Of a stretch of 64,000 nucleotides of DNA, positions 59,617 through 63,988 are shown piece by piece (within the stretch, counting starts at the first letter, position 1; each line of letters begins with the position of its first letter). The notes under the pieces are model-generated. The model saw only the letters and a program-made list of their open reading frames with translations. It did not search any database and was not told where the DNA came from. Position numbers and translations under genes: made by a program. Origin of the DNA: Colwellia sp. 1_MG-2023 (lineage in GTDB: Bacteria > Pseudomonadota > Gammaproteobacteria > Enterobacterales > Alteromonadaceae); NCBI RefSeq assembly GCF_030546755.1, contig NZ_JAUOPE010000005.1:218411-282410 (forward strand). Reading direction: 5' to 3'.

Positions 59617-60612
59617 TTACCTAATTAAGTTATCTAATTCTTGTTTGGCTAAATAACTGTCCATCATCGAACGTAATAATTTATAAAGCAAAATTGAACC
59701 ATCTATTTCTTCTTTACGGTTAGTTAAACTTTCAATGTTTAAACCAAGCGGTAAATTATAAGGTAAAACCGCATCTAAAATTTGTTGTAAGCTATTGGCA
59801 CATATACGAATAGATTCATACAGCGGTTTTTCCGCATTTAAGATCCGTAAAGAGGTAGCTTCTGGCACGCTAACACCTAACCATTCAATAAACTCTAAAG
59901 TTTTTTCACTACCACAAGGTGAAAACGTTAAAATAAAACGTTGGGGTTTAATATTTAACTTTTTACATTCAATAGCATAGCGCGTCAGCATATCAATAGT
60001 CGCTTGTGGATTATATATCGCTTGCGATATAAAAAAGTTACAACCTTGCTGATGCTTTTCAATTAATCTTTCGTGCTCATTGCCTTTTTTAGCATGACGT
60101 TCTGCGATAGTAACGCCGCCAATAAAAAATTCATTTTGATTATCTACTAGGGTTTTATATGCATTAGCTAATGAAAGAGAAATGGTGTTTTTCTTTGAAG
60201 GACTTCCTACTAAAACAATGTCACGAATGCCGTATTCTTGCCATGCTTCGTTCGCCCATTGATTAAAGTCATCGGCATTTGATTGCACAACACTTTTATA
60301 AGTGATGACAGGGCGTGCTGACTTTTGATTTAACAATGCAGAATAATGTCTTGGATCATGCGTGGTTTTAAACGGAAAAGGACGAGGTTTATTGGTACGA
60401 GAGTCTTCATCTTGAATGTCATATACAATCAAACCATCGAAATCAATATCGCTTACTCGTTCAAGTAGTTTACTGGCAATACTTTCTACTTGTTCAATTG
60501 GAGTATCACTTTTGGGTGGTGTTGTACCAATAAAGTATACGCCTCGCGTAACATCGTTATATCTTGCTTTTAGCTCTGATCCGTTATTCACTGTTTTTTT
60601 CGTTCTTAACAA
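59617..60612 (-). CDS. methylenetetrahydrofolate reductase-like protein
   Basis: The 331-residue protein looks like a divergent TIM barrel of the MTHFR family: YDIQDEDSRTNKPRPFPF near the N-terminus, DIVLVGSPSKKNTISLSLA, GGVTIAERHAKKGNEHERL and HQQGCNFFISQAIYNPQAT in the second half, where MTHFR has a similar Gly-Ala-Asp-Phe-Ile-x-Gln segment. It is not the classical MetF, which is better conserved. It may act on folate or another cofactor with flavin. It is followed by a coupled 67-residue protein. A nested inverted repeat lies upstream. Confidence 0.75.
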   Translation of the reverse strand: MLRTKKTVNNGSELKARYNDVTRGVYFIGTTPPKSDTPIEQVESIASKLLERVSDIDFDGLIVYDIQDEDSRTNKPRPFPFKTTHDPRHYSALLNQKSARPVITYKSVVQSNADDFNQWANEAWQEYGIRDIVLVGSPSKKNTISLSLANAYKTLVDNQNEFFIGGVTIAERHAKKGNEHERLIEKHQQGCNFFISQAIYNPQATIDMLTRYAIECKKLNIKPQRFILTFSPCGSEKTLEFIEWLGVSVPEATSLRILNAEKPLYESIRICANSLQQILDAVLPYNLPLGLNIESLTNRKEEIDGSILLYKLLRSMMDSYLAKQELDNLIR

Positions 60613-61224: not shown

Positions 61225-62169
61225 TTATATTTTTGCGATTTGTTTTAAGATATCGTCTTTATTTTTCATCAGTTTAATTGCATTAAATAACGCTTCAGCT
61301 TGCGGATATTGTAGTTTTAAATAGCGTAACCACTGTTTTAAGCGACTCGAAAAATAGAAACTTTTATCGCCTTGCAATTCTAACTGTGCATAATGTTGAA
61401 ATAATTGACTAACAGATCCCCAAGGCATTTTATCTTCTTTTTCTTTGACAACATTTGCTAAGTTAGGCATGGCTAATGCGCCTCTACCTAACATGATATT
61501 TGCTGTTTTTGCTTCTCTTATGCATTGTTTTGCATCGGATAATGACCAAATTTCGCCATTAGCAAACAGTTCAATGTTATATTTTTCGCTGATTTCACCA
61601 ATGTGATGCCAATAAGCGGGTGGGTTATAACCATCACGCTTTGTTCGTGCGTGTATCGTTAATTGATTGGCATTTGCGCTGGTAATGGCACTGACAATTT
61701 CATCTAAAAGTGAAGCATCATCAAAACCCAAACGAATTTTTGCGGATAATATTTGTTCCTGTGGCAATGCTTGTTTTACGCTGTTTACAATTTGATAAAT
61801 AGTTTCAGGCGTTTTTAATAAAACAGCACCACCTTTACTTTTATTGACCGCTTTTGCTGGACAGCCAAAATTTAAATCTACACCATGCGAACCTAATTCA
61901 ATGGCTTTAATGGCATTCTCAGCCATCCAATGTGGTTCTTGACCGAGTAATTGTACCCGAGTTGGTGTGTTATTTAGCGTAAAGCCACCGCGTATTAATT
62001 CAGGGGATATTTTATGAAATATATGGGTAGGAACTAGCCTATCTACAACGCGTACAAATTCAGTTATACATAAATCGTAACAATTTATCGAGCAAAGTAA
62101 ATTACGCATAAGCTCATCTGCCACGCCTTCCATTGGAGCTAATATGACTTTATTTATTTGATTAATCAT
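61225..62169 (-). CDS. dusC: tRNA-dihydrouridine(16) synthase
   Basis: The 314-residue flavoenzyme reduces uridine 16 of tRNA to dihydrouridine. The N-terminus has ILAPMEGVADELMRNLL and CITEFVRVVD, which match DusC better than DusA or DusB; RVQLLGQEPHWMAENA and the catalytic Cys in DLNFGCPAKAVNKSKGG (about residue 101) follow. The C-terminal helical domain is tRNA-binding. It is divergent from the EGKCG repeat gene by about 195 bases. Confidence 0.95.
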   Translation of the reverse strand: MINQINKVILAPMEGVADELMRNLLCSINCYDLCITEFVRVVDRLVPTHIFHKISPELIRGGFTLNNTPTRVQLLGQEPHWMAENAIKAIELGSHGVDLNFGCPAKAVNKSKGGAVLLKTPETIYQIVNSVKQALPQEQILSAKIRLGFDDASLLDEIVSAITSANANQLTIHARTKRDGYNPPAYWHHIGEISEKYNIELFANGEIWSLSDAKQCIREAKTANIMLGRGALAMPNLANVVKEKEDKMPWGSVSQLFQHYAQLELQGDKSFYFSSRLKQWLRYLKLQYPQAEALFNAIKLMKNKDDILKQIAKI

Positions 62170-62210: not shown

Positions 62211-62363
62211 TAATCTTTTAGAGATAAATAAATTGAGGATTGAAATTTATTTTCAAACGTCAGGTCTTGTTAATAAGTAGTACTTAATTACTGTTGTGTA
62301 AAAAGCTATTCAACACATCATACTAGATATAATGTCTAAGTTTACAATATAAAGGAAAACAAT

Positions 62364-62765
62364 ATGAATATAATTAAAAAATCAGCTGTTGTGTTAATGT
62401 TAAGTGCATTTGCTTTAACTTCGTTAGTCAGTCTTTCAGCCAAAGCTGAATCGAATCCGTTTGAATCTCAAGACATTGTTACTATCGTTGATGACCATGC
62501 TAAAGAACATAAGTGCGGCGAAGGGAAAAAAGATAAAAAAGGAAAATGCGGTGAAGGCAAGTGTGGCGAAGGGAAAAAAGCCATGAAAGGAAAATGCGGA
62601 GAAGGCAAGTGTGGTGAAGGGAAAAAAGCCATGAAAGGAAAATGTGGCGAAGGCAAGTGCGGCGAAGGGAAAAAAGCTAAGAAAGGAAAATGCGGCGAAG
62701 GCAAGTGTGGCGAAGGTAAAAAAAGTAACAAAGATAAAAAAAGTAAATGTGGCGAAGGTAAATAA
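62364..62765 (+). CDS. HvfA-like EGKCG repeat protein, probable RiPP metallophore precursor
   Basis: The 133-residue precursor has a signal peptide (about 1-28, cut after SAKA), a short linker, and from about residue 50 a low-complexity region of Cys, Gly, Lys and Glu. Four 16-residue repeats GKCGEGKCGEGKKxxK (residues 60-123) are present, each with one exact EGKCG motif; there are ten Cys in all, every one followed by Gly-Glu-Gly-Lys. This is the pattern of HvfA, whose EGKCG Cys are turned into copper-binding oxazolone/thioamide groups by the DUF692 (MNIO) enzyme HvfB with its partner HvfC. No such genes are near: dusC lies upstream on the other strand, an SDR downstream, and the gene has its own terminator. 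The ribosome site is AAAGGAAA. Confidence 0.82.
   Translation: MNIIKKSAVVLMLSAFALTSLVSLSAKAESNPFESQDIVTIVDDHAKEHKCGEGKKDKKGKCGEGKCGEGKKAMKGKCGEGKCGEGKKAMKGKCGEGKCGEGKKAKKGKCGEGKCGEGKKSNKDKKSKCGEGK
62541..62732 (+). repeat. four tandem 48-base coding repeats
   Basis: Four in-frame 48-base units (62541-62588, 62589-62636, 62637-62684, 62685-62732) each encode GKCGEGKCGEGKK plus three residues. They differ mainly at third positions, so copy number may vary between strains. Confidence 0.88.
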
Positions 62766-62794: not shown

Positions 62795-62820
62795 AAAAGC
62801 CACAGTATTGTGGCTTTTTC
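62795..62820 (+). terminator. rho-independent terminator after the EGKCG repeat gene
   Basis: AAAAGCCACA and TGTGGCTTTT form a perfect stem around GTAT, with T residues following. The repeat gene is therefore monocistronic. Confidence 0.88.
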
Positions 62821-62942: not shown

Positions 62943-63623
62943 ATGAGTCAAAACGTTGTAATTACAGGTGCAAACAGAGGTATTGGTTTTGCAATGAGTA
63001 AAATATTTACTGAGCGAGGAATGAATGTATATGCATTATGTCGTCAGTCTTCAGAACAACTCGACACCTTGTCCAAACAAACAGAAAATTTGCATGTTAT
63101 TCCAGGTATAGATGTTGCAACTGATGCGGGAATCACTGCAATGGCAACAGCATTAAAAGATATCACTATAAGTATTCTTGTTTGTAATGCAGGTATTTTA
63201 CGCGATGAGCAATTAGGCTCATTAAATATTGCAACCCTGCGTGAGCAGTTTGAAGTAAATGCCATTGCTCCTTTACGTTGTGTTGATGCATTAGCACAGC
63301 AGTTTATTCCAGGTAGTAAGGTGGCAATGATAACTTCTCGTATGGGATCTATTGCAGATAATGGTTCTGGAGGTCGCTATGGTTACCGAATGTCAAAAGC
63401 TGCACTCAATGCTGCGGCTATGTCTTTATCAAAAGATTTAGCGAGCGAAAACGTCGCGGTGGGAATTTATCATCCAGGCTATGTTCAAACGGAAATGGTT
63501 AATCATGGTGGCGATATAAGTGCTGATGAGTCTGCTGGTAAATTAGTTAATTTAATTCTCGATTTATCGATGCAAGAATCTGGCGTTTTTAAACATTCCA
63601 ATGGACAAATTCTTCCTTGGTAA
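62943..63623 (+). CDS. SDR family oxidoreductase
   Basis: The 226-residue protein is a classical short-chain dehydrogenase: TGANRGIGFAMSK for cofactor binding (about residue 8), CNAGILRDE, the catalytic Ser in MITSRMGSI and Tyr/Lys in YRMSKAAL (about 150). It resembles the small NAD(P)-dependent SDRs near the YciK/CsgA-like group. The substrate is unknown. Its last codons overlap the start of the next gene, so they form an operon. Confidence 0.92.
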   Translation: MSQNVVITGANRGIGFAMSKIFTERGMNVYALCRQSSEQLDTLSKQTENLHVIPGIDVATDAGITAMATALKDITISILVCNAGILRDEQLGSLNIATLREQFEVNAIAPLRCVDALAQQFIPGSKVAMITSRMGSIADNGSGGRYGYRMSKAALNAAAMSLSKDLASENVAVGIYHPGYVQTEMVNHGGDISADESAGKLVNLILDLSMQESGVFKHSNGQILPW

Positions 63624-63988
63624 CAGAAGAAAAATCATACAAGCCCCAGTATGTTCGTATTTGGCGAACCGTTCAAATGATCCCTTTAGGTAAAGTTGCT
63701 ACCTATGGACAAATAGCGGATTTAGCGGGTTTACCCGGTAGAGCACGTTTGGTTGGCAAAGCATTGGGAGCCGTGCCTAAAACAGGTTGGGATAAACAAC
63801 CTGTTCCTTGGTATCGAGTGATTAATGCCCAGGGAAAAATTTCTTTTCCGCTCAACAGTGAATACTTTTTAACTCAAAAAGGCTTATTACAAGAAGAACA
63901 AATCATTGTTATAGGGGCAAAAATCAAGTTGTCGAATTTTCAATGGCAACCTGATTTGTCTGAATTATTATTTAAACTGACCTATTAA
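63617..63988 (+). CDS. alkyltransferase-like protein (MGMT family, Atl/YbaZ type)
   Basis: The 123-residue protein has the DNA-binding domain of O6-alkylguanine-DNA alkyltransferases (VATYGQIADLAGLPGRARLV, the recognition helix with the Arg finger), but the active-site Pro-Cys-His-Arg is replaced by VPWYRVINAQGKIS, with Trp in place of Cys. This is the mark of alkyltransferase-like proteins, which bind O6-alkylguanine and hand the lesion to nucleotide excision repair. The start appears to be TTG at 63617, overlapping the SDR gene by 7 bases; the first internal Met is too late in the domain. Confidence 0.92.
   Translation: MVTEEKSYKPQYVRIWRTVQMIPLGKVATYGQIADLAGLPGRARLVGKALGAVPKTGWDKQPVPWYRVINAQGKISFPLNSEYFLTQKGLLQEEQIIVIGAKIKLSNFQWQPDLSELLFKLTY

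Follow-up and report, generated by a model that had tools for sequence, protein, structure and literature searches.

An HvfA-like precursor gene in Colwellia that appears to have outlived its modifying enzymes

A gene for an HvfA-like repeat precursor stands alone in the genome of Colwellia sp. 1_MG-2023, and it raises the question of whether its product is still modified or serves the cell in an unmodified form. The ORF lies at 62364-62765 (+) of the window, i.e., the whole stretch of 64,000 nucleotides that was analysed, and was read from the sequence as a 133-aa protein with an ATG start and an AAGGAA ribosome-binding site (62352-62357, +), which was kept in the upstream alignment. Residues 1-28 (62364-62447, +) were assigned to a signal peptide with a predicted cut after AKA, based on the KK, the hydrophobic core and the AxA. 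This putative signal peptide was clear by eye, conserved and present as an N-terminal helix in the predicted model, and the precursor is probably exported by Sec. The mature N-terminus, ESNPFESQDIVTIVDDHAKEH (62448-62510, +), separates the signal peptide from the repeats and, by motif comparison, does not carry the leader motif [LM]xxGY. It is followed by four 48-bp (16-residue) units and a partial unit (62511-62762, +; units at 62511-62558, 62559-62606, 62607-62654 and 62655-62702); as a tandem array, the 48-bp repeat extends over 62511-62723 with 4.4 copies and a 90% match. In the preliminary description, made from the sequence alone, the four units were considered exact; their number stood, while the units KCGEGKKDKKGKCGEG, KCGEGKKAMKGKCGEG (twice) and KCGEGKKAKKGKCGEG proved to be near-exact only. 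The ten Cys residues, every one in CGEGK and mostly arranged as CGEGKC pairs, and the four EGKCG motifs were found as described. The repeat region is not restricted to Cys, Gly, Lys and Glu, as had been stated, and also has A, M, D, N and S. The anticipated change in the copy number of the 48-base units was evident among congeners, in which the precursor measures 130, 133 or 143 aa and the repeat number differs.

The assignment of the protein as HvfA-like was upheld by the NCBIfam NF050137 (KCGExKCG_twice) domain, which scored 79.4 bits against a cut-off of 19.5. The HvfA equivalog model NF050188 gave 50 bits, below its cut-off of 95; this model is a weak discriminator, with three of the five tested enzyme-served precursors also scoring below 95 bits, and it was dropped as a separator of orphan and enzyme-linked classes since it gave no clean split. 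The precursor was syntenic in two congeners (protein identity 86-88%), and dN/dS values of approximately 0.03-0.2, with dS near saturation, were obtained within the window genus and the genera closest to it. Based on the NF050137 score, the synteny and the dN/dS values, the ORF is not a chance one. The orphan precursors are under strong purifying selection; they contain no stops, and the predicted signal peptide, the Cys residues and the promoter are conserved in at least 13 genera. AlphaFold models of the window protein and four relatives were disordered (pLDDT 38) with no metal site visible, which would argue neither for nor against metal-induced folding, and a search of solved structures returned chance matches only.

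The genome search for DUF692 and DUF2063 proteins and the comparison of neighbourhoods among relatives, both proposed in the preliminary description, were performed. In the whole genome (assembly 99.99% complete), no match was obtained for PF05114 (DUF692/MNIO) or with an HvfB-class MNIO from a relative as the query, and neither the DUF2063 (PF09836) partner nor a YcaO protein was found. The suggestion that an enzyme encoded at some distance may act on the precursor was thus contradicted, and an MNIO at another locus of the window genome was ruled out as an explanation. The description of the product as a likely copper-binding RiPP became doubtful, given that the genome has no recognised modifying enzyme, and the alternative offered beside it, an unmodified metal buffer, fits better. 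Among 197 genomes of the GTDB family, many of them drafts, an MNIO was present in 146 and the precursor domain in 145; 29 of the 145 precursor-bearing genomes had no MNIO of any kind. DUF2063 was absent in all 29 of these and present in 5/5 MNIO-positive controls. The orphan-type genomes with MNIOs had other classes only (identity to the HvfB-class query no higher than 44%, versus 59-72% in the linked genomes). The action of such an other-class MNIO on the orphan in trans was rejected as a general explanation, being possible in some species only, with 29 orphan genomes lacking any. Loss of the enzymes through assembly was considered unlikely in view of the 99.99% completeness of the genome and of several orphan genomes that consist of a single contig in which the locus is intact. 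One orphan-type genome (G194, contig C63, 21469-21672) contains a short fragment that is interrupted by stops and bears a weak resemblance to MNIO (35% over 69 aa); it may be the remnant of an MNIO of one class or another. In another genome (G053), an enzyme-linked precursor appears to be split within its repeats across the ends of contigs C20 and C21 (L132 end, L133 end); such repeats break assemblies and may thereby conceal precursors.

The same state has been reported previously for 67 of 2583 complete genomes, which carried Buf_EGKCG without an MNIO and were called rare (PMC12452194, Table 3); it was left unexplained there, and the share in the present family sample is 29/145. In the present analysis, the orphan state was traced to one clade, together with its locus, the loss of the leader, a residue shift and selection. 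The name given to NF050137, 'oxazolone/thioamide-modified RiPP metallophore', is probably wrong for approximately one third of the precursor-bearing genomes sampled. It is also outdated in its chemistry, as is the oxazolone/thioamide conversion assumed for this gene at the outset: the HvfA modification has been reassigned to 5-thiooxazole (PMC12668002; PMC13419390).

Comparison of the neighbourhoods revealed one shared locus, which holds the two enzyme genes in some genomes and lacks them in others. The usual order in approximately 35 enzyme-linked genomes, with local variation, was [DUF3450-TolQ-TolQ/ExbB-ExbD-TonB-TPR]-(dusC, divergent)-precursor-MNIO-DUF2063-(response regulator)-apt-dnaX-ybaB, in which the names of the DUF3450/TonB cluster come from sequence reading and not from a family search. 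In the orphan genera g2, g5, g10, g14, g29, g32 and g39, the precursor was flanked by the TonB cluster and/or dusC, the response regulator, apt and dnaX were present, and only the MNIO and DUF2063 genes were gone from the locus. In the window genus and in g9, g40 and g42, the dusC-precursor pair stands beside an SDR and/or alkyltransferase-like gene and dnaX lies elsewhere, approximately 40 kb from the precursor in the window genome. The divergent upstream gene of the window, a dusC-like tRNA-dihydrouridine synthase (61225-62169, −; PF01207), belongs to the conserved synteny; dusC adjoins the orphan precursor in 20 genomes and an enzyme-linked precursor in several others. Downstream, the precursor is followed by an SDR-family gene (62943-63623, +), as it is throughout the window genus and in three genera related to it, and the order of the dusC-like, SDR and alkyltransferase-like neighbours was kept in two congeners. 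No DoxX gene, a frequent but not essential member of such systems, was identified next to the precursor. Together with an intrinsic-terminator-like hairpin with a T tail (62795-62818, +) and the predicted signal peptide, these flanks agreed with the earlier view of a secreted orphan between dusC and an SDR with a terminator of its own. The alkyltransferase-like gene (63617-63988, +; PF01035) encodes 123 aa with a C-terminal PVPWYRVI. The active site of the methyltransferase is PCHR, so the product probably belongs to the ATL proteins, which lack the Cys acceptor. On the other side, a 331-aa protein (59617-60612, −) adjoins dusC and is kept in 10 genomes; it matched nothing in Pfam, and NCBIfam gave only a weak match, to methylenetetrahydrofolate reductase.

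In a dnaX tree of 80 genomes, built from this one protein marker and midpoint-rooted, all 37 orphan-type genomes fell into one clade (support 100/100), which also includes one precursor-less genome. A linked clade was sister to the orphans, and more linked lineages were placed outside that pair. Since linked operons are widespread in Pseudomonadota, including Haemophilus, Neisseria and Fontimonas (PMC12668002, PMC12452194), a single loss at the base of the clade is the simplest reading. As all orphans would derive from one event, the species counts given here are not independent and describe a difference between lineages rather than many cases.

The orphan and linked precursors also differed in sequence. 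In the segment that joins the signal peptide to the repeats, the motif [LM]xxGY (in one case xxxAY) was present in 44/44 linked precursors and in 0/50 orphans; 43 of the former were identified by script and that of G031 by eye, its LTSGY lying just outside the scripted window. A GY flag in three g27 genomes was discarded, as it arose upstream of the true start and the motif was absent in the 26 residues that lead up to the repeats. The junction A[EDN]xNPF was found in 50/50 orphans and 12/44 linked precursors. Glu occupied the −3 position of Cys in all 543 scored sites of linked precursors. In the orphan pairs, −3 of the first Cys was Lys in 244 cases and Glu in 20, whereas −3 of the second Cys was Glu in 259/259; the Cys residues and their GEGK context were almost perfectly conserved. 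The combination of the [LM]xxGY leader with Glu at every −3, shared by all linked precursors examined in the family, is missing from the window precursor. As a control, genus g37, in which the precursor lies apart from the MNIO (approximately 59 kb in G038) and an HvfB-class enzyme is present in the genome, has kept both signatures. In the FonBC system, Arg at the −3 position in both repeats blocked processing, while Ala at position 1 was tolerated (PMC12668002); given this tolerance, the change to Lys alone need not abolish modification.

Upstream of the precursor, a putative ECF-sigma-type promoter (62242-62267, +) consists of GAAATT (62242-62247), a 16-nt spacer and GTCT (62264-62267). The pattern TGAAAT[TA]-N16/17-GTC[TAG] occurred upstream of 44/49 orphan and 27/37 enzyme-linked precursors, compared to 1.1% of shuffled upstream regions; this ECF-sigma-like promoter is common to both kinds of gene. 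Its form is of the ECF sigma type and differs from that of Caulobacter sigma-F (GTAACC-N16-CGAA, PMC3511200, versus TGAAAT-N16/17-GTCT here). In a genome-wide search, matches to the motif did not exceed the reversed-pattern controls, and for this reason no regulon is claimed. The motif was also seen upstream of a CutA-like gene (L258, in one of the genomes G043 and G006) and of genes for secreted thioredoxin-like proteins with WC[ST]WC (L262 in G006, L264 in G043). This vicinity may hint at a metal/thiol stress regulon and is given as a lead only.

We consider it reasonably probable (about 0.62) that the gene encodes a former captophorin/oxazolin precursor, the enzymes of which were lost, and that its product is now an unmodified periplasmic thiol buffer for metal or redox stress. 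An ancestral precursor-MNIO-DUF2063 operon of the hvfABC/captophorin type would have lost two genes, for the HvfB-class MNIO and the partner DUF2063 protein, in the common ancestor of a Colwellia/Thalassotalea-like clade, and the window gene would be its surviving first gene. The precursor would then have drifted from enzyme recognition, losing the GY leader and exchanging Glu for mostly Lys at −3 of the first Cys, while strong selection would have retained the secreted repeat protein and its ECF-sigma-type promoter. After export by Sec, the CGEGKC thiol pairs of the unmodified protein could bind a thiophilic metal, Cu(I) first and perhaps Zn; alternatively, within the same proposal, they could absorb oxidative or disulfide stress in the envelope in a periplasmic, metallothionein-like manner. 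We infer that an envelope buffer with unmodified thiols for Cu(I) and other thiophilic metals, presumably induced by stress, is the best reading, with redox buffering a close second. That enzymes were lost rather than gained leans on the wide spread of linked operons (PMC12668002, PMC12452194).

A role mainly as a thiol redox buffer, in which CGEGKC thiol/disulfide cycling would shield the envelope against hypochlorite and other oxidants and metal binding would be secondary, is the alternative that we regard as a possible, though doubtful, one. It draws on the retained ECF-type promoter, on the same motif in front of a secreted thioredoxin-like gene in two related genomes and a CutA-like gene in one, and on the hypochlorite envelope response of H. 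influenzae, which is governed by the ECF factor RpoE2 (PMC7907618); against it, the genome-wide motif matches at or below the control level mean that the putative regulon is not established. The almost perfect conservation of the Cys residues and their GEGK context would also agree with a RiPP that is still modified in trans by an unlinked, unrecognised enzyme, an option left open in published work wherever no MNIO is linked to the precursor (PMC12452194). We find this improbable in a genome without MNIO, DUF2063 and YcaO, for a precursor that has lost both the leader motif and the −3 Glu belonging to the first Cys, and beside conserved neighbours that comprise only housekeeping genes, a response regulator and the genes of the TonB cluster. 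Slightly less probable still is that an enzyme unrelated to MNIO and YcaO, encoded elsewhere, replaced HvfBC in the clade and modifies the Cys residues; in that case, the leader and −3 shifts would be signs that the new enzyme recognises the precursor, not that recognition was lost.

The history could also be read in the opposite direction, with the single gene as the ancestral state and the MNIO-DUF2063 pair inserted at the locus in other lineages. The orphans do fall into a single clade, and the dnaX tree was rooted by midpoint only, yet linked operons occur across Pseudomonadota (PMC12668002, PMC12452194) and linked genomes are placed not only as the sister of the orphans but also further out in the tree, so we hold this to be quite improbable. 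A decaying relic without function, as the disappearance of the biosynthetic enzymes might imply, is hardly credible: it is refuted in the main by the low dN/dS, and the intact reading frames with their conserved elements also speak against it.

The preferred reading, that of an unmodified thiol buffer, makes the clade a natural experiment on the worth of a RiPP precursor without its modification. The enzymes were dropped, while the precursor, its export signal, Cys residues and stress-type promoter were kept under strong selection, which suggests that, in the Colwellia/Thalassotalea group, an enzyme-processed peptide turned into a secreted protein that works by itself and unmodified as a metal or redox buffer. 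What the modification adds, be it affinity, metal choice or resistance to oxidation, can be tested directly if orphan proteins are compared with linked ones of neighbouring genera. The GY leader and Glu at −3 provide simple sequence marks that separate the two classes.

With the HvfA/oxazolin precursor of Haemophilus (NF050137, NF050188; Buf_EGKCG type 1), the orphan shares the KCGEGKCG pairs and, by prediction, a Sec-type signal peptide; in contrast to HvfA, its genome is without HvfB/HvfC, it has no leader GY, and its first Cys mainly follows KGK instead of EGK. The captophorins (fontiphorin FonA, gonophorin NgoA and oxazolin), which are 5-thiooxazole copper peptides, are likewise secreted peptides with EGKCG repeats, whereas the window genome has no recognised enzyme to install their defining 5-thiooxazole. 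The bufferins (BufA1 DUF2282, BufA2) resemble the orphan as secreted, Cys-rich copper-buffering precursors, with ECF sigma control in Caulobacter, but represent another precursor family served by another MNIO class. Metallothioneins offer a functional analogy based on Cys content; to our knowledge, they have no sequence relation to the orphan precursor. Both are small, Cys-rich and disordered with closely spaced thiols, and the orphan differs in its predicted export and in its Lys/Glu/Gly repeat array.
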